From Thermocoleostomius sinensis A174 (GTDB lineage Bacteria > Cyanobacteriota > Cyanobacteriia > Elainellales > Elainellaceae), in the NCBI RefSeq assembly GCF_026802175.1, contig NZ_CP113797.1, forward strand, positions 1 through 64,000: DNA of 64,000 nucleotides, read 5' to 3'. A program made the position numbers and the translations under genes. Positions 1,060 to 34,510 of the stretch are shown here, piece by piece. Under the pieces are notes generated by a model. The model had not been told where the DNA came from, searched no databases, and saw nothing but the letters and a program-made list of their open reading frames with translations. Every line of letters begins with the position of its first letter. Positions within the stretch are counted from its first letter, which is position 1.

Positions 1060-1539
1060 GAGACTTGCCTGTTGGGGTAGGGGGAACTAGAAGGCCTTGC
1101 GATCGCCGCAAAGCAGTACTCTAAATGCAGAAAGTCACTATATCCTTTCCCGAAACTGATTTCAGCGATCGGATTTTAGAGACTTTTCATAGATTTAATT
1201 CAATGGAACTGCTTGTTTAACTAGATTTATATCTATAATACGGCACAACTGCTTCTATAGTTCGTGAAATCTAAATTCATTTGAAACAAATTTTTCTCAA
1301 GCCTTTTAGACTCTGCTTGTTGAAGTAGAAACTTAATTAAGCCCTGGCTTTTAGGGTTTATATTACTTAGAATTATGGGTTAAATAAGAGCGGAGAATTA
1401 TATAGATCGGGGAATTGATAGCTGGTGCAGGCAATGGCGATGCGTGCTCCTGCTATCAATCGCTAAAGCTGCCACCAGAAATCAATGCTACGATCATCGC
1501 CTCTACGGACTGGCTTGGGAATTATTGCTATTCTGCCAT
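1060..1539. other. Intergenic region with a 9-bp inverted repeat
   Basis: AT-rich stretch with no supportable gene. It holds the presumed promoter of the antiporter genes and, at 1414-1422 and 1452-1460, a perfect inverted repeat (ATTGATAGC / GCTATCAAT, 29-nt loop) lying downstream of nspC. There is no T-tract on the minus strand, so it is not a clear intrinsic terminator. Confidence 0.5.
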
Positions 1540-2676
1540 CTAGGACAATCGTCGTTTGTAGTCGTTGTAGTCAAACACTCGAATTAATTCAAACTGATTA
1601 TCCGCACGCATTATGCCGATCGATGGATGTTTGATGCCATTGAAGCAAGAGGTTTTCACCATCGTGTAGTGAATCATATCTTCAAATAGAACGGTGTCAC
1701 CCACCTCAAGCGGCGTTGCAAAGTAGTAATCACCCATGCCCATCACATCTCCAGCTAAACAGGTCAACCCACCCATGCGATAGGTGGGTTCTCCAGGCTG
1801 CGGATCGCGAGCACCCCGGATGCGCGGCTTGTAGGGCATTTCCAAGCAATCGGGCATATGGGCTGTAAAGGACACGTCTAGCATGGCGATCGTCGGACCG
1901 GGGGTGGGAATCAAATCCAGTACGGTGGCCCGCAGAAACCCCGTTTCCCAAGCGATGGCGGAACTGGGTTCCAAATAGATTTGCAACTGTGGATATCGCT
2001 GTTTAAAGTCTGTGATGAGATCGACTAAGTGATCAACATCGTAGCCTTGGCGAGTCATCAAATGCCCACCGCCTAGGTTAAGCCAGCGAATCTGAGGTAG
2101 ATGGTGTCCAAATCGCCGTTCAATTTGCTTTAGGGTTTCTGCAAGGGCAAAGGAATCGCTCTCGCATAGGTTATGACAATGCAAGCCCTCAATACCCTTT
2201 GGCAAGGTATTGCCCAACGTTTCTGCCCGGATACCCAACCGAGACAGGGGTGCAGCCGGGTTATAGATATCCTGCTCTACGGGCGAATATTCGGGATTGA
2301 TACGCAAACCGGGAGAGAGGTTCGCGGCGATCGTCCGGTTTTTGAACCGCTGCCACTGGCTCAGGGAATTAAAGGTGATGTGGGTGGCATTCTGGATCAG
2401 ATCGGCAAATTCAGCGTCCTGGTAGGCGGGCAAATATAAATGCAGATCGCCACCAAATTCCTCTCGCACCAAATTGGCTTCAAACAGAGAGCTAGCTGTA
2501 GCCCCCTTTAAGTAGCGTTTGACAATAGGAAAGGCGCTGAACATGGCAAATCCTTTCAGCGCCAACAATACCGTGATGCCTGCCCGCTGCTGCACAGAAT
2601 CAATTAGTTCCAGATTGTGAATCAGCTTGACCTCTTCCAGAACATAGCACGGTGAAGGAATATGCGAATCTATCAT
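1540..2676 (-). CDS. nspC: Carboxynorspermidine/carboxyspermidine decarboxylase
   Basis: 378 residues, close to the usual family length. PLP-dependent fold-III (alanine-racemase-like) enzyme that decarboxylates carboxyspermidine or carboxynorspermidine to the free polyamine. The PLP-binding lysine is in LLALKGFAMF near residue 41; the glycine-rich WLNLGGGH and the HCHNLCES segments fit the cofactor pocket, and the C-terminal VKTSCFNGI contains the cysteine of the active site contributed across the dimer. An ATG at 2676 was chosen: it follows the dehydrogenase stop by 7 bp and has GAGG upstream. A TTG at 2691 would overlap the upstream gene by 8 bp. It is the last gene of the agmatinase-dehydrogenase-decarboxylase operon. 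Confidence 0.92.
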   Translation of the reverse strand: MIDSHIPSPCYVLEEVKLIHNLELIDSVQQRAGITVLLALKGFAMFSAFPIVKRYLKGATASSLFEANLVREEFGGDLHLYLPAYQDAEFADLIQNATHITFNSLSQWQRFKNRTIAANLSPGLRINPEYSPVEQDIYNPAAPLSRLGIRAETLGNTLPKGIEGLHCHNLCESDSFALAETLKQIERRFGHHLPQIRWLNLGGGHLMTRQGYDVDHLVDLITDFKQRYPQLQIYLEPSSAIAWETGFLRATVLDLIPTPGPTIAMLDVSFTAHMPDCLEMPYKPRIRGARDPQPGEPTYRMGGLTCLAGDVMGMGDYYFATPLEVGDTVLFEDMIHYTMVKTSCFNGIKHPSIGIMRADNQFELIRVFDYNDYKRRLS

Positions 2677-2683
2677 CGATCGA

Positions 2684-3886
2684 TCACGCAACCTCGAACT
2701 CAGATGGCTGATTGATTACCTCATGCCAAGGTAAGCCGAAACTGCCTAACTTTTCCAAAAATGGATCAGGATTCAGTTGCTCGACGTTAAAGACTCCAGC
2801 TTCGCTCCACTGACCTGTCAGCACCATTAAGGCTCCCAACATAGCAGGTACACCTGTGGTATAGGAAATGGCCTGTGCTCCTACTTCACGATAGGCAGCC
2901 GCATGGTCGCAGTTGTTGTAAATATAGTACGTCTTTTCCTGCCCGTCCTTGATGCCGCGAATGTGACAGCCGATCGAGGTTTGCCCCTCGTAATTTTCGC
3001 CCAGCTTAGACGGTTGCGGCAGTACTGCTTTCAAAAATTGTAGCGGGACGATCTTATGCCCTTCATAGTCAACCGGATCGATGCGAGTCATGCCGACGTT
3101 TTGCAACACGCGCAGATGCGTTAGATACGTCTCAGAAAAAGTCATCCAAAAGCGTACTCGCTTCAGCGTTGGGATGTGTTTAACGAGAGATTCTAGTTCT
3201 TCGTGATAGAGCAGGTAGGACGATCGCGATCCAATGTCAGGATAGGTAATCGATCGCTGCATTGAGAAAGGTTCGATCTCAATCCACTGACCATTCTCAT
3301 AATAGCGACCCTTCTGGGTGATTTCGCGAATATTGATTTCTGGGTTAAAGTTGGTTGCAAACAAATGTCCGTGATTGCCCGCATTGCAATCCACAATGTC
3401 GAGATAGTGAATTTCGTCGAAATGGTGTTTCAGCGCGTAGGCTGTAAAGATACCTGTAACACCTGGATCAAATCCACATCCTAACACTGCCATGATTCCC
3501 GCTTGCTTGTAGCGTTCATGATACTCCCATTGCCATTTGTATTCAAACTTGGCTTCATCGGGCGGTTCATAGCTAGCGGTATCAAGGTAGTGTACGCCTG
3601 TCTCTAAACAAGCATCCATAATTGGTAGATCTTGATAGGGCAGCGCCACATTGATGACGATATCGGGTTGAAAATCACGAATCAAGGCGACGACTTCGTT
3701 GGACTGGTTGGCATCTACTTGGGCCGTTGCCAGAAACGGGTGATCGATCGATTGAGCAATTGCATCGCATTTTTCCTTGGTGCGGCTGGCCAGCAGAATC
3801 TTGGAAAATACTGATTCAGCCTGAGCACACTTATGGGCAACAACGTTGCCCACACCTCCTGCACCAATAATGAGAACTTTAGACAT
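2684..3886 (-). CDS. Carboxynorspermidine (carboxyspermidine) dehydrogenase, saccharopine dehydrogenase family
   Basis: 400 residues. Catalyses reductive condensation of putrescine (or diaminopropane) with aspartate semialdehyde to carboxyspermidine (or carboxynorspermidine), NADPH-dependent, in the cytosol. The N-terminus MSKVLIIGAGGVGNVVAHK is a Rossmann dinucleotide-binding motif (GAGGVG). The rest matches the Lys1-like fold, with GCGFDPGVTG and the GNHGH segment typical of this branch. The start is the ATG at 3886, preceded by a strong AGGGGGTGAT ribosome site; an in-frame upstream extension lacks such a site. The product feeds NspC encoded directly downstream, and its substrate putrescine can come from the agmatinase encoded upstream. 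Confidence 0.92.
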   Translation of the reverse strand: MSKVLIIGAGGVGNVVAHKCAQAESVFSKILLASRTKEKCDAIAQSIDHPFLATAQVDANQSNEVVALIRDFQPDIVINVALPYQDLPIMDACLETGVHYLDTASYEPPDEAKFEYKWQWEYHERYKQAGIMAVLGCGFDPGVTGIFTAYALKHHFDEIHYLDIVDCNAGNHGHLFATNFNPEINIREITQKGRYYENGQWIEIEPFSMQRSITYPDIGSRSSYLLYHEELESLVKHIPTLKRVRFWMTFSETYLTHLRVLQNVGMTRIDPVDYEGHKIVPLQFLKAVLPQPSKLGENYEGQTSIGCHIRGIKDGQEKTYYIYNNCDHAAAYREVGAQAISYTTGVPAMLGALMVLTGQWSEAGVFNVEQLNPDPFLEKLGSFGLPWHEVINQPSEFEVA

Positions 3887-3992
3887 ATCACCCCCTGTGA
3901 TGAATTCGATCGGGTTTAGTTGGATAAACTGGGTCTGATTGAGACCAGACTCTTTATCATCGCACAAGCATCCTTGCTCATGCACTATTTTT

Positions 3993-5045
3993 CTACAGTT
4001 GTGGCTGTGATAAGCTCATCAGATTGCAGAGTTTGTAGACAGTTCGCGCTCCTACATTGCCGTCCCACTCGTCATTTCCAACTTCTGAGACATCAAATCC
4101 AATGATGGTGCGATCGCTGTTGACAACTTCACGGAACAAGCAAAAGGTTTGTTCCAGTTCCAGCCCGCCCGGAACAGGTGTGCCTGTATGAGGACAAAGC
4201 TTTGGATCGAGGCCATCGACATCGAAACTAATATAAACGTGTTGCGGCAGGTCTGCCACAATTTGTTGGCAAAGGTCTATCCAGGAAGCTCCACCATACA
4301 GCTTTTGTTTTAGTACCGGATCATAGTGGGCTGTAATGCGCCCCTGGGACTGGTTAATGACCTCAACTTCGTCATGGCACAGATCGCGAATGCCCACTTG
4401 CACTAGCTTCGATACCTGTGGTAAGTCTAGAACGTTGTACATGATAGAGGCATGGGAAAAGGTGAAGCCCTCGTAAGCTTGCCGCAAATCTGCATGGGCA
4501 TCAATGTGCAAAATTCCGAATGCTGGATACTGGTCAGCCAGGGCTTGAATGCAGCCCAGTGGCACACTGTGATCGCCACCAATGACAGCCGGGCGCTTTC
4601 CTTGCTGTAGTGCGGCTCGAACTTGCTCATACAACCAGCGATTCAGCGATCGGCATTCGTCATTAATTCGATCGAGTACAGCCTTGAGTTTTGGATGATC
4701 GGCCACAGAGCCGCCTTGTTCTAAGTGATCAATCAGGTGCGCCGCTTGTTCTCGCAACGTATGGCTAGTTTGCAGAATCGATTCAGAAATCGCTGGCATG
4801 AAAATGCCATGTTTCCAACCATCAGGATAGTCAAAGTCGTACAGATCGAGTTGGCGCGATGCGTTGAGTACCGCTTGGGGGCCCTGTGCCGTCCCTGCTC
4901 CATAGGAAACCGTCACTTCCCAAGGCACGCCAAACACGATCGTCTCAGCAGTATTGTAGTCAAACGGTAGTCCTAGCAGGTTGCCGTTGTCTAACCCAAT
5001 ACCACTGGGATTAAACGCAGAAAAAGAATGGTCGATCGCAGTCAT
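3993..5045 (-). CDS. speB: Agmatinase / ureohydrolase family protein
   Basis: 350 residues. Mn-dependent ureohydrolase; in this context most likely converts agmatine to putrescine and urea. Metal-ligand motifs are all present: GGDHS (about 156-160), DAHAD (about 182-186) and SFDVDGLDP (about 273-281). An insertion around residues 60-135, with WKHGIFMP, makes it longer than E. coli SpeB. The ATG at 5045 was preferred over a longer upstream reading because MTAIDHSF begins the conserved part. It lies 106 bp upstream of the carboxyspermidine dehydrogenase and is probably in the same operon. Alternative: cyanobacterial guanidine hydrolases belong to the same superfamily, but the polyamine neighbours favour agmatinase. 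Confidence 0.85.
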   Translation of the reverse strand: MTAIDHSFSAFNPSGIGLDNGNLLGLPFDYNTAETIVFGVPWEVTVSYGAGTAQGPQAVLNASRQLDLYDFDYPDGWKHGIFMPAISESILQTSHTLREQAAHLIDHLEQGGSVADHPKLKAVLDRINDECRSLNRWLYEQVRAALQQGKRPAVIGGDHSVPLGCIQALADQYPAFGILHIDAHADLRQAYEGFTFSHASIMYNVLDLPQVSKLVQVGIRDLCHDEVEVINQSQGRITAHYDPVLKQKLYGGASWIDLCQQIVADLPQHVYISFDVDGLDPKLCPHTGTPVPGGLELEQTFCLFREVVNSDRTIIGFDVSEVGNDEWDGNVGARTVYKLCNLMSLSQPQL

Positions 5046-5167: not shown

Positions 5168-7741
5168 CTAGGGTTGAATCCGAGACAGGGCTTGCCAATC
5201 GCGAACAGTGGCATCTTTCCACAACCAGTTGCGCTGAAGCACATCTGCCCGGAAGTTGTTGGGATCTTGTTGCTGCACCATCTGGTAAAGCCTAGCGGCT
5301 TTGCGAATCAGATTCTCTTGCTGTGCAGGCGACTGACCGATCGAAGCATCCCACAATGCCAAGGCAATTCCTGCATAAACCGTCAACCGCTCTTGGAGGG
5401 CTGTCTCTTCAGCCGCAACCATGTTAGCTGAACTAGTATCAGCAGCGGCCAAGGTCACAGCAGGCGCTTGCTCCAGGGTATTCAACGCCCTGTTCCAGGT
5501 TTGCATGGCTCGCAGTGGTTGATTTTCTGCATAATAGGCAAATCCCAAAGCTTCCTGATACTTAGGATTATCGGGAGCCGCATTAGCCGCCAGTTCCCAA
5601 TAGCGACGCGCATCGGCTAGCGTGTGCACAGGACTACCCGTATCAATTCCCTGCCAGGACAAGCGCCCCCAGAGGTAGTTAATCTCCGGCGTATCTACGC
5701 TGGTCGGAACGGCTGCCAAGGCTTCAGCAGCAGCCTGAAGCTCGCCTCGATCGAGCAAGGCAGTAACAGCCGCTTCACCCTCAGCATATTGTTGACGGCG
5801 AAAATGGTTGATGGCAAAGGTTTTTACTGCTTCCGAATCCGCTGTTTGTAGGTTAAGAGACCCAACAATGGGCAGCGAAGAGTTGTCTGGAAACTGAAGC
5901 CCTAGACCGCCACTTTGAATTTGAGAATATGACCAAATACCGATCGCCACAACTGCCGCTGCACTCAAGGTTCCTACTACTGGCTTAAGCAGCCGTCGCC
6001 GGGCTGAAAGGGGTTCTGTCTGATTGGATTCAACCGCTGTAGGAGTTGCCACGGCTAAGGGAGCCGCCTCTGGTTGCCGTTCTGCAATCACCGCTGTGGG
6101 AGGTTTGTCTTGCTGCATTACCGGATTAGCAACAGGCGCAGAGGTGGGTTTAGCAACAGGCATAGCCACAGGAGCAAGGGGAGAAGCCGTTGATCCGGGC
6201 AAGGCAGCATCAGAGGAAGACAGTTGCCGCAATAAGTCTGCGACAAGGCTGGCATCTTCTTCGTATGTCTGCTCTAAGTCTGCTGTGTCGTTAGTCCAAT
6301 CTGAAGCTTGATGGGTTGATGTTAAAGATGGCTGTACCGTATCATACGGCGATCGTGCTGGCCAGACAGGACGGGATATAGGCATTCCATCTTCAGCCCC
6401 GGTGAGGGAGAACGCCCCATAGAGTTGTGGCAGCAGCACCAACCGCTCAGCCGGGTTCGCCACGGGTTGAATTGGAATCACATAGCCATCAAATTCCGGA
6501 TGCAAGTATAGAACCGGGAGGGCCCAATACAGTTGATGCGAGCTATAGGCTGAGATCAAGCCTTGACGCGCCCGGCTTAAGCTGAGATCGATCGGATAGC
6601 CCAATTTCAAGTTGCGATAGAACAGCCAGGTTAGCGTCAACGCCACATTGTCTGGAATTTGTTCGGCCATGGCCAGCACTGCCGGAATACCGCGACTGAC
6701 CAAAGTTTCGGCCAAGTTGCGCTCCTGTGGCTGATTAGAGTTGGACGCAGCCGTGTAGGCCCCTCGGCAGGAGTTAAACACCGCTAAACGAATGCCATTA
6801 TTGACCAATAGCCCAGCTAAATCGTTGCCAGTCAGAATTTCTGTCAAGCCAGTGCGAGGGTTCACCAGGTACAGACTCCCGCCGTTTGCCCCTAAATCAC
6901 TATGACCTGCATAATGAAGAACCTGATAGCGACCTTGTTCCAGTGCTTGCGTCAGTTGTTCACGTCCGGGTTGCTTCAGAATCGTCAGTTGCACATCCGG
7001 TAAAGGGGTCGCTACCGCATCGGGTGTTGGAGCCACTTGATTTTGCAATTCTTGCTGAAGGCGGGTAGCTTCCTGTTCTAGTTTCAGGCGTTCGCGATCG
7101 GTTGGAGCGGCAATCACCATCAGTACCCGCAACGGCTGATTAGGCTCTGGGGTTGAGATCAAACTTTCCACAGCCAACCGTACATTGGGCTGATAGCGCG
7201 AAAAAATCACATGGGTGCCTGCGGTCAGCGGACGAGAAGCGGCTCCCACGCTGCCTGGTTGTCGTTCGGCCGGAGTATCGTTAGCATAGAGCACTTCCCA
7301 CGGCAACCGCAGCACTTGCTGCCCCTTCAGTCCTAACCGCAGCCGCAGTGTTTCGTTGCGATGCTGGGCAATGCCTTGGGCTGTCACCCAACTATCGCGC
7401 AACGTGCCTTGAAATAGTGCACTATAAAGCTGCTGACCAAGCTCAACCAAGCTGAACGACGGATGCGAGTCTGGTAATCCTACACTGGATGAAACACCGT
7501 TAGGTAATGAGACGGTCGAGGACAAGCCGGAGCGATCGCGCAGGGTACTAGCCGGAGCGTGACCTTGCAGCAGTCCCATCAGCGGATCGTTCATAAGTTG
7601 ACGGGCTTGAACCAGCCATTTCTCGATCGGCCATCGAACTTGCTCTTCAGCCAGCGGCACTCCGGGTGCAACACGCTCGGTTCGCACTAGGTATTCATCT
7701 TGTCCAACTGGGGTTACAGAGATATCAAATTCTTGAGTCAC
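5168..7741 (-). CDS. CHAT-domain (caspase-like) protease with membrane helix and C-terminal TPRs
   Basis: 857 residues. Domain order: an N-terminal region typical of cyanobacterial CHAT proteins (about 1-200), the CHAT caspase fold with the His of HYAGH (H280) and the Cys of VFNSCRGA (C325) as the expected catalytic dyad, a proline/alanine-rich linker (about 500-580), one membrane helix (about 587-606, VVGTLSAAAVVAIGIWSY), then TPR-like repeats to the C-terminus. The catalytic domain thus lies on one side of the membrane and the TPRs on the other; orientation is not determinable here. CHAT proteins are peptidases used in signalling, stress and some defence systems; no CRISPR or gasdermin gene lies beside it. 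It ends 122 bp upstream of the agmatinase start and may or may not be co-transcribed. Confidence 0.88.
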   Translation of the reverse strand: MTQEFDISVTPVGQDEYLVRTERVAPGVPLAEEQVRWPIEKWLVQARQLMNDPLMGLLQGHAPASTLRDRSGLSSTVSLPNGVSSSVGLPDSHPSFSLVELGQQLYSALFQGTLRDSWVTAQGIAQHRNETLRLRLGLKGQQVLRLPWEVLYANDTPAERQPGSVGAASRPLTAGTHVIFSRYQPNVRLAVESLISTPEPNQPLRVLMVIAAPTDRERLKLEQEATRLQQELQNQVAPTPDAVATPLPDVQLTILKQPGREQLTQALEQGRYQVLHYAGHSDLGANGGSLYLVNPRTGLTEILTGNDLAGLLVNNGIRLAVFNSCRGAYTAASNSNQPQERNLAETLVSRGIPAVLAMAEQIPDNVALTLTWLFYRNLKLGYPIDLSLSRARQGLISAYSSHQLYWALPVLYLHPEFDGYVIPIQPVANPAERLVLLPQLYGAFSLTGAEDGMPISRPVWPARSPYDTVQPSLTSTHQASDWTNDTADLEQTYEEDASLVADLLRQLSSSDAALPGSTASPLAPVAMPVAKPTSAPVANPVMQQDKPPTAVIAERQPEAAPLAVATPTAVESNQTEPLSARRRLLKPVVGTLSAAAVVAIGIWSYSQIQSGGLGLQFPDNSSLPIVGSLNLQTADSEAVKTFAINHFRRQQYAEGEAAVTALLDRGELQAAAEALAAVPTSVDTPEINYLWGRLSWQGIDTGSPVHTLADARRYWELAANAAPDNPKYQEALGFAYYAENQPLRAMQTWNRALNTLEQAPAVTLAAADTSSANMVAAEETALQERLTVYAGIALALWDASIGQSPAQQENLIRKAARLYQMVQQQDPNNFRADVLQRNWLWKDATVRDWQALSRIQP

Positions 7742-8282
7742 GGGATTAGCGCACTCCTCGCTCTAGCACATACACCTTACTGATGGATTCACTCGCAAAT
7801 CGCCAGTTCCGAACGGAGCCTTAGACAATCTGTAGCGATCGCTCTCACTCACTTGTTCTCGATCGATCGGAAATTTTCAGGAACTTTTCCAAATCAACGC
7901 TTGCCAGAATGAGATGAGGGTCTATCTCATTATGAACAGCCTTTGTTTCTATCTCCACCCAACGGCAGAGAATTGGTCAATTCTTTAAGACGAAGCCGAT
8001 TTCAAAAAGTTACCTCTTTGGAAAGATTTTTAAAATCGATTTCTACAAAAATTTCCGGACGTTAACTGGCTGCTTTAGAACAGTGAAGTGGTAGATGCAC
8101 CCTGATTCGATACCCCTGGCTCACTAGTTGGGTCGGGGGATTCTTTATTCCTGGATCTTAACCTCTGGATTGACTGCACTGGTATTATTCCCGGATGGAC
8201 TAATTTCTTAGCCTCCAAAATCTATTTCACAGAATCGTAATCCTTTGTTACAATCAGCAAAAGTAACGAAAGGATTGGAAAT
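7742..8282. other. Intergenic region between divergent genes with an 8-bp palindrome
   Basis: About 540 bp without a supportable gene, serving as promoter space for the CHAT gene (minus) and psb34 (plus). A perfect 8-bp inverted repeat, AATGAGAT (7908-7915) with ATCTCATT (7924-7931), could be an operator or a small hairpin. No T-tract follows it. Confidence 0.4.
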
Positions 8283-31411: not shown

Positions 31412-34400
31412 TTGCGGACTGTTCGCCACATCATAAGCCGTATGAATGACTTTAACGACCTATGGATATTACCAGTCGTCTTATTAGGACTAGGAGTTTT
31501 TCTAATGTCGCACCGCAATGAACCTGCTGTGGACGAAAACCTTGAGATGAAATCCAACTCAGATCATACTCAAAGGCCTGATGGCGAACCAGCTACACAG
31601 AGTCTTGATCAAAAAGAGATGATTGACGAGTCGATCGAAGATTTGGAAAAAGAATCGTCAATAGAAACTTCAGTAAAAAAAGATGAACTATCTGATCATG
31701 AACTATCTGATCAATCATCCATTCAATATGGTGTTGAGGTGACTGATTCTTTGTCAGTGAGTGATGACGAAGTATCGATCGAGAAACTGAATGAATTAAC
31801 AATTGATGAAATTCAGAATGAAACACTGAAAGAACTTCCTGATAATACAAACTCTATAGACTCTACAGAGTCTAATGATAGGCTATCTGAAGCAATTGAG
31901 ACTGGCAACGAGCAATCGATCGATCGAGTAGCGACTGAAGCAGGTGAAACATTGTCGATGGAGCTAGAAGACGAAATACCAGAAATCCCAAAGGAAGAAA
32001 TCAGCGAGCTAGGTTGTGCTTCCAACAGAGATTCCGGCGTTGAGATTGAGGCTGCGATGCCTAGTGTAGCCGATGTTCCAGCACAGCCGACTACCACTTC
32101 AAAATTACCGATAACTGAATCGACTGTACCATCGAGTACCTCAACCCTGCGAGTCAAGGTTCCACCGCTTGGCGATCGAACAACGTTTCAGGCAGCACGA
32201 TTTCAGCAGGCGTTTACAGAAGCACTGTCTCAGCAGGGGCAAACGTTGACAACAGTGACGCCTCAAGTGGGCTACAGTATTCTAGCGAGCATGGTTCAAG
32301 AGCAATTGCGGTTGCTGAGTTCCCCGGATCGATCACAGGCAGAGCGCATAACAGTACAAGTGGCGATCGACATACCCCTGGATCAGTCGTTGGAAAGCTA
32401 CTTACTGAATCTGGGGGTTTTGGAGTCTGTCCGTCAAGCATTCGATGAGCTTAATCTAAACCTGGATGCATTGTTGACTCTAAGAACTTCATCGCCACCA
32501 CAGCTAAGCGATTGGCAAGCGCAATTTGTCACCGATGCGCTGGAAGCATTGACAACAGCACAGTTACCTGCGATCGGCTATTGCCTGCGGCAAGATAGCA
32601 ATACTAATGTAACGCTGTGGGAGATTCAACGGCCAGAGCACCAGGTTACCGTTGCCTTCGGCGGTGATACACAGCTATACACTGGACGTGATGGACGGTT
32701 GCGCGTTCGTTGGACGCCCCAAGATACAATCACAGCTATTCCTTATGACGCGCTAATTTCTGGCTATGCAGCTAAGTGCACGACACCGCTACGCCGCTGG
32801 CAAATTAAGGCTTCAAGAACCACTCAAGCCAATTTAGAGCAGGTAGATTCTGGCGCGATCGAAGTACCGAAATCATTAGCAGTTGCATCATCAAATGAAG
32901 AAAAACGGTTGCAACAGCATTTTGTTTTGGTGGCTTGCGTTGTGGCAGATGTCATGCGGCTACACCAACAATCTGGCTTGCCCATTGACACGTTACCCAA
33001 ACGAGTTGCTATTCATCTCAACGGTACAGCCACGGGACTAGCAATTGTGGAGTTGATGCGCTGGCTCATAGACGAGTTTGATTTAGAGTGGGCAGCCGCT
33101 TGGCGGCTCACTCAACAGACTTTTTCTGGTCGATTTCAGGATGACATAGAAGACGATCGGTGGTCAATTGCGGTTTTAGAACGTTTATTGCCTCGACATC
33201 TAGAAATTATTTATGAAATCAATCGGCGCTTTTTGGATGAACTGAACGTGAATGGAGTTGAGACGATCGAACGCATTCGACAACTATCGCTCATTGATGA
33301 AGAAGGCGATCGCTCTTTGCGGGTGCACCAGCTTATTTATTTAGGATGCTGCTCGGTCTACATATCCACATTGTCACTAAAGCCTCTATCAGCATCCGTG
33401 CATTCGTTAGTTGAAGTCTCCGATTCATTTTCCGAGTGGCTGAAAGCGAAGATCAAGCCGTATCCCATCAGCATCAATGCTCGTCGATATTTGCTGCAAG
33501 CCAATTCGTCTTTGGCGGCATTGATTACTCAGTGGATCGGGGAAAGCTGGATTACGAATACCGAATATCTAAAGCAATTGGAGGGCTTAGTGCAAGATCG
33601 GCAGTTCTGTGCCGAATGGTGGCAGGTGCGCCGCACACTTAAACAAAATTTGATTCATCTCATTCAGCAACAAGCCGATAGTTCTATTCCTGTCAATTCA
33701 CTCATTGATGTTCAAGTTGCGCCGATCGGTATTGCTTCACGACAGTTGTTGAATATTCTCCACATCATCACACTCTATATTCGGCTCAAAGTTAATTCCA
33801 GCACAGATACAATTCAACACTTTACGCATCGATCGGTTCCACGTAGCTGTATTCTCGTAGGCAACTTAGATAATGATGACGCAATGGCTAGTTCGATTCT
33901 GTATCTCATTCGGTCAGTAGCAACCACCATCAACAATGATCCAGATGTACAAGGCAAGTTGCAGGTAATTGTTCTAGAGCAGCCCCGTGAACCAATTCTG
34001 CGTGCGCTCTATGCTGCTGATGTGATTGAATCGCTGGCACGAGCAGATCAAGCGGTAATGCCCACGACCCCCTTGGGCTTTGCGCTAAACGGTGCTCTAA
34101 CAATTGGCACGCTGACCCAGCCCAATCTGGAACTGCAACAGGCAGTTGGCGGTAAAAACTGCTTTCTGTTTGGCATGACCGCGACCACCGCTAGCACTCT
34201 TACCAGCCAAGGCTATGTCCCAGCATCTTATTACAGCCGCAATGCTGACCTGAAACAGGCAATCGATGCGATTGCCTCTGGCTATTTCTCGTTTGGGGAT
34301 ACAAACGCCTTCAAGGCATTGGGAAATTGGTTATTCACCCAAGATCCCGGACTAGTCCTAGCCGATTATGAGGCATATATGGATTGCCAGGAGCGCGTCA

Positions 34401-34510
34401 GTCAAAGCTTTCAAGATCAAAAGCATTGGACGCGGATGTCTATTTTGACCACAGCCCGTATGGCGTCGCTATTAACCGATCGGGTGGTTGCGGCCGATCG
34501 TGACAGTTGA
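31412..34510 (+). CDS. Membrane-anchored glycogen phosphorylase-like pseudoenzyme
   Basis: 1032 residues. One N-terminal membrane helix (about 18-33), then an acidic Ser/Asp/Glu-rich segment (about 40-240), then a GT35 phosphorylase fold (about 245-1030). Family landmarks are clear: LPAIGYCLRQ, AIHLNGTATGLAIVELMRWLID, LERLLPRHLEIIYEINRRFL, LAALITQWIGESWIT, RQLLNILHIITLY, NNDPDVQGKLQVIVLE and FALNGALTIGTL. The catalytic residues are missing. The loop normally KRIHEYKRQ reads APIGIASRQ (about 770-778). The pyridoxal-phosphate lysine of GTGNMKFALNG is Gly (PLGFALNG, G889). LNDTHP is LNGTAT. It therefore cannot be an active phosphorylase; a glucan-binding, scaffold or regulatory role is possible. 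The TTG start at 31412 has AGGA upstream; an ATG at 31442 is the alternative. Confidence 0.8.
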   Translation: MRTVRHIISRMNDFNDLWILPVVLLGLGVFLMSHRNEPAVDENLEMKSNSDHTQRPDGEPATQSLDQKEMIDESIEDLEKESSIETSVKKDELSDHELSDQSSIQYGVEVTDSLSVSDDEVSIEKLNELTIDEIQNETLKELPDNTNSIDSTESNDRLSEAIETGNEQSIDRVATEAGETLSMELEDEIPEIPKEEISELGCASNRDSGVEIEAAMPSVADVPAQPTTTSKLPITESTVPSSTSTLRVKVPPLGDRTTFQAARFQQAFTEALSQQGQTLTTVTPQVGYSILASMVQEQLRLLSSPDRSQAERITVQVAIDIPLDQSLESYLLNLGVLESVRQAFDELNLNLDALLTLRTSSPPQLSDWQAQFVTDALEALTTAQLPAIGYCLRQDSNTNVTLWEIQRPEHQVTVAFGGDTQLYTGRDGRLRVRWTPQDTITAIPYDALISGYAAKCTTPLRRWQIKASRTTQANLEQVDSGAIEVPKSLAVASSNEEKRLQQHFVLVACVVADVMRLHQQSGLPIDTLPKRVAIHLNGTATGLAIVELMRWLIDEFDLEWAAAWRLTQQTFSGRFQDDIEDDRWSIAVLERLLPRHLEIIYEINRRFLDELNVNGVETIERIRQLSLIDEEGDRSLRVHQLIYLGCCSVYISTLSLKPLSASVHSLVEVSDSFSEWLKAKIKPYPISINARRYLLQANSSLAALITQWIGESWITNTEYLKQLEGLVQDRQFCAEWWQVRRTLKQNLIHLIQQQADSSIPVNSLIDVQVAPIGIASRQLLNILHIITLYIRLKVNSSTDTIQHFTHRSVPRSCILVGNLDNDDAMASSILYLIRSVATTINNDPDVQGKLQVIVLEQPREPILRALYAADVIESLARADQAVMPTTPLGFALNGALTIGTLTQPNLELQQAVGGKNCFLFGMTATTASTLTSQGYVPASYYSRNADLKQAIDAIASGYFSFGDTNAFKALGNWLFTQDPGLVLADYEAYMDCQERVSQSFQDQKHWTRMSILTTARMASLLTDRVVAADRDS

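Follow-up and report, generated by a model that had tools for sequence, protein, structure and literature searches.

The locus and the encoded protein

An open reading frame of 1032 codons runs from 31412 to 34510 on the + strand of the window, the whole 64,000-nucleotide stretch of Thermocoleostomius sinensis A174 DNA that was analysed. It contains no stops, as expected from the earlier note, which had described a gene intact over 3.1 kb. The frame opens with a TTG at 31412; the probable start is the in-frame ATG at 31442 (codon 11), which we prefer because both relatives of the protein, described below, have the corresponding Met as their first residue (MNDFNDLW / MNFLDFLW / MKFVDVLW), and the coding sequence would then span 31442..34510 and specify 1022 residues. 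The product begins with a single predicted transmembrane helix, FNDLWILPVVLLGLGVFLM (31451..31507, + strand; residues 14-32, hydrophobic), whose flanking charges suggest an N-out/C-in topology. It continues with an acidic, Ser/Thr-rich segment (31511..32146, + strand; residues 34-245; 55 D/E and 14 K/R), predicted to be mostly disordered and modelled by AlphaFold2 with low confidence over most of its length. The N-terminal membrane helix claimed in the earlier note thus stands as a prediction, while the 200-residue acidic "tail" proposed there is in fact a linker between the helix and the folded domain.

The remainder of the protein (32162..34507, + strand; residues ~251-1032) adopts, in the AlphaFold2 model, an intact glycogen-phosphorylase fold with pLDDT mostly near 90. 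Pfam PF00343 covers residues 400-1027 with 446 bits, and NCBIfam TIGR02093 scores 435.6 bits, below its cut-off of 552.9. The best solved structural matches of the domain are glycogen phosphorylases, and 752 residues align with the Crocosphaera enzyme 9wvu at 3.0 Å (Z 44.6), in full agreement with the original assignment to this family. The genes next to it code for an MFS transporter, a SnoaL-like protein and an M24 peptidase; they offer no clue to function, and the genomes that carry a relative (G019 and G223) do not share this neighbourhood. Scans for sigma-70 promoters and terminators around the gene gave nothing above chance, and Rfam has no match there.

Active site and dimer interface

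Residue numbers here are those of what we take to be the equivalent positions in rabbit muscle phosphorylase, assigned via the conserved motifs. We scored 28 active-site positions in an alignment of 90 cyanobacterial phosphorylases. The resulting signature shows at most two differences in 71/71 canonical phosphorylases and is exact in E. coli MalP, but is missing from the window protein. Where the enzymes have the glycine loop (EPGLGNGGLGRL; here 32495..32527, + strand, by alignment), NGGLGRL is lost and SDWQAQF is found; the KAAPGY segment is lost as well. LNGTAT replaces LNDTHP (33017..33034, + strand), and GRFQDDIEDDR replaces TNHTLLPEALER (33128..33160, + strand), with loss of His377; the exchange of NHTLLPEAL for RFQDDIEDD bears out the reported loss of HTVLPEAL to acidic residues, and turns NH377 into FQ. 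Asn484 is Ile. The KRIHEYKRQ motif, which contributes Lys568, Arg569 and Lys574, reads APIGIASRQ (33719..33745, + strand), and the codon for the PLP lysine, Lys680, specifies Gly (residue 889; 34076..34078, + strand), the surrounding GNMKF having become TPLGF. The substitutions named in the earlier note are all present, and none of the alternative alignments of the window protein brings back the catalytic residues.

Two other proteins, which together with this one we refer to as the window type, belong with it. Twenty enzymes have 227 invariant columns in common, and the three proteins preserve 67 of these; the sugar-site residues (glycine loop, His377, Asn484 and Glu672) are not conserved among them. 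A new loop is conserved in the trio, as is a Pro at position 569. An 8-residue insertion in the segment STDTIQxFxHRSVPR (33797..33841, + strand) is confined to these proteins, being found in 3/291 class genomes, all of them with the window type. The old active site of the window type contains no new constellation of conserved polar residues. Sequence comparison thus strongly supports the view that the window protein is non-catalytic.

A further loss concerns quaternary structure. The 250' loop and tower helix correspond to rabbit residues 248-276 (PMC10116597), and the tower helix is a conserved dimer-interface element of GlgP (PMC2837607, PMC10116597). Measured as the residue count from LRLW to LRLxQQ, the tower region is exactly 56 residues long in 71/71 enzymes and in E. 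coli GlgP, as against 27-44 in the window-type proteins; in the window protein a segment of 44 residues (32789..32920, + strand) lacks both the 250' loop and the tower helix. Since the helix is missing, the window protein probably stays outside the canonical dimer.

Relatives, fusions and ancestry

The window type occurs in three genomes, G000, G019 (Microcoleus sp. FACHB-1515) and G223, among 388 genomes of the class and 36 of the family; a scan of genome contigs with an alignment of two members picked up Microcoleus sp. FACHB-1515 alone. The two relatives (L043 in G019 and L121 in G223) belong to genera different from that of the source, and all three proteins carry the N-terminal helix. The window protein and L121 have clearly acidic linkers, in contrast to that of the Microcoleus copy (12 D/E, 10 K/R). 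With only three known members, the set is joined by long branches, and the window and Microcoleus copies share 44% amino-acid identity. The shortened tower region and the loss of the sugar-site residues extend to both relatives. The Microcoleus gene is intact; that of G223, known from a draft assembly, is broken up over three neighbouring frames. Selection was judged from codon positions and stop simulations and not from dN/dS, since synonymous sites are saturated. Identity between the window and Microcoleus genes is 0.54/0.65/0.34 at the three codon positions, with saturated 4-fold sites; neutral simulation over half the distance between them left 0/200 sequences stop-free; and codon usage is coding-like (0.66 versus 0.59-0.61 off-frame). 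Judged on these patterns, the gene is under strong purifying selection, though its rate is high, and not in decay.

Going beyond the earlier note, we find that the window gene falls in a clade with fusions of a PBP domain to a pseudo-phosphorylase. Fused phosphorylases were found at 14 loci in 14 genomes, with frames mostly of 1150-1660 aa; with two further loci bearing the fusion signature (G174 and G239), the total is 14-16, in two cyanobacterial families. The complete fusions examined consist of a signal peptide, a PBP_like_2 domain, a TM helix, an acidic linker and a phosphorylase domain. One of them lies in the source genome itself (L038:1236-6089, + strand; genome 528-533 kb), with a PstS-like PBP domain and Ile for the PLP lysine. 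In all fusions checked, Ile, Met or Ala stands in place of the PLP lysine and Asp in place of His341, and Lys568 is lost throughout; with few exceptions they retain the glycine loop, Asp339, His377, Asn484 and Glu672. Their tower region measures 30-33 residues. The fusions (for example L038, L042 and L082) are thus like the window protein in their TM helix, acidic linker, shortened tower region and loss of the PLP lysine and Lys568, and form its sister or parent group. Unlike them, the window protein has no periplasmic PBP domain at its N terminus, has lost the sugar-site residues, has gained the 8-residue insert and is not followed by genes for 131-aa or DUF4912 proteins. The fusions L077, L080, L081 and L082 adjoin genes for phosphoketolase and a D-lactate-dehydrogenase-like protein, or for acetate kinase and transaldolase, company that hints at a connection with fermentative carbon metabolism and acetyl-phosphate.

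In a tree rooted with an E. coli outgroup, the window type and the fusions form one clade (support 100/99; 100/100 with the G223 copy), which sits inside the cyanobacterial GlgPs. The AU test rejects a tree with the window type at the base (p 0.0004), and monophyly of the fusions relative to the window type has support of 72-95. In the simplest history suggested by these sequences, a GlgP ancestor lost the PLP site and the tower helix and became tethered to the membrane; the window type either would have been without the PBP domain from the outset or would have lost it later. The closest catalytic relatives are the cyanobacterial GlgP1/GlgP2 enzymes (GT35), such as Crocosphaera 9wvu, which share the whole fold; the window protein differs from them in lacking the PLP lysine, the KRIHEYK loop, the glycine loop and the tower helix, and in adding the N-terminal membrane helix and the linker.

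Other degenerate phosphorylases were also met with. The soluble pseudo-phosphorylases L004 (source genome) and L096 (G010), each beside an RNA uracil-methyltransferase-like gene, resemble the window protein in their degenerate active site, with Pro for Arg569; unlike it they have no membrane helix, and L096 retains the PLP lysine. An unrooted tree had placed 19 pseudo-phosphorylases in a single clade, which we rejected, as it contained the very long branches L101, L004 and L096. The E. coli outgroup puts L004 and L096 among canonical GlgPs, and tests reject their grouping with the window type or with the window type plus fusions (AU p 0.0002-0.007); they are treated here as a lineage of separate origin. 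This second, independent lineage of degenerate soluble proteins is represented at L039:5369-7780 (-) and L130:7273-9774 (-), transcribed in both genomes divergently from the methyltransferase-like gene, with the PLP lysine kept in the L130 copy. L129 (G037:C1, ~734-736 kb) is a very divergent phosphorylase homologue in which the PLP lysine is Cys and the tower region is of full length.

Several of the fusions are followed by a gene for a 131-aa beta-domain protein. The gene after that, in some genomes, codes for a PBP-TM-DUF4912 protein with the 131-aa domain at its C terminus. Members of this domain family are found at L038:6156-6551, L139:656-1051 and 1215-4145, and L042:4776-5171. The protein is modelled as mostly beta (pLDDT 88), and the domain has no match in Pfam, NCBIfam or PHROGs and no confident one in the PDB. 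The window-type gene of G223 adjoins a gene with two 131-aa domains, and stand-alone two-domain versions are found, among the 36 family genomes, only in G000, G019 and G223. This one neighbourhood and the co-occurrence in three genomes of the same family, the latter confounded by relatedness, are suggestive of a tie between the window type and the 131-aa protein. Tandem small ORFs with a ~73-aa repeat (DVVCLAPIRTxIRREEEIxLxRKVRKVEE) also adjoin the two-copy 131-aa-domain gene (L136 ~7017-8265, that is G000:C1:867017-868265; L137:820-1702; L121:1-105); such ORFs are present in 10/388 genomes.

A probable non-catalytic role at the membrane

The loss of the PLP lysine, the intact frame, the signs of purifying selection and the two relatives in other genera lend good support to the proposal, already made from the sequence of the window, that the gene is kept for a non-catalytic role. 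On balance, we lean modestly towards a membrane-tethered adaptor or decoy, derived from the transmembrane pseudo-phosphorylase family and serving in the same carbohydrate-signalling module as the fusions. The single helix, to judge from its sequence and the charges that follow it, would insert N-out/C-in in the inner membrane, and the dead phosphorylase domain would be held in the cytoplasm on the long acidic linker. There it might bind proteins as an adaptor or decoy, with neither catalysis nor a periplasmic sensor of its own. That it would work in the membrane-associated module of the fusions is suggested by the phylogeny, the common layout and the one neighbourhood. A more elaborate arrangement is conceivable, if rather doubtful, in which the fusions couple their PstS-like periplasmic domain to a dead phosphorylase on the cytoplasmic side, which would sense a sugar, phosphate or glucan signal, with the window protein as a sensor-less adaptor working with the 131-aa and DUF4912 proteins.

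The two roles put forward in the earlier note, regulation of a true GlgP and anchoring of glucan, have both become less likely. The source genome codes for two catalytic GlgPs (L001 and L002), with which the window protein could form a direct regulatory hetero-oligomer at the membrane. There is, moreover, an analogy with plant BAM4 and BAM9, amylase paralogues that are inactive and have a regulatory function (PMC12892837). It is an analogy only: like the window protein they are inactive paralogues of alpha-glucan-degrading enzymes, but they are plastidial, soluble and of an unrelated fold. Ordinary pairing with a GlgP is made unlikely by the deletion of the tower helix, a conserved part of that enzyme's dimer interface (PMC2837607, PMC10116597), and we regard this role as unlikely overall. 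As a membrane anchor for glycogen, which seems quite improbable, the protein could use its retained phosphorylase fold, with glucan bound perhaps at a secondary site on the surface; the old active site is unlikely to serve, given that the sugar contacts are gone, and Pfam reports no carbohydrate-binding domain.

The long branches and the broken frames of the G223 relative are what might be expected of a decaying, functionless remnant. Such an origin is very hard to reconcile with the codon-position pattern, the intact ORFs in two genera, the conserved new insert and the coding-like codon usage, and has little to recommend it. Least credible of all is that the protein has gained a different catalytic activity; the new loop and the Pro at 569, conserved in the trio, might be read in this way, but the PLP lysine is gone and no new set of conserved polar residues has taken its place.

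Among allosteric PLP enzymes, glycogen phosphorylase is a textbook case. In the open-access literature searched we found no description of a pseudo- or inactive phosphorylase, an absence that is no proof, and the available text of a 2026 review of alpha-glucan catabolism in phototrophs deals only with catalytic cyanobacterial GlgPs (PMC12892837). From its sequence, the window type appears to be a pseudoenzyme branch of GT35 with no matching description in the literature searched. Caution is warranted in annotation, since proteins matching PF00343, or in the case of the fusions even TIGR02093, are not always enzymes. A maintained clade of membrane-tethered phosphorylases devoid of the PLP lysine and the tower helix would constitute a new group of pseudoenzymes, one that opens to direct test whether a periplasmic ligand might be coupled to glycogen metabolism in the cytoplasm.
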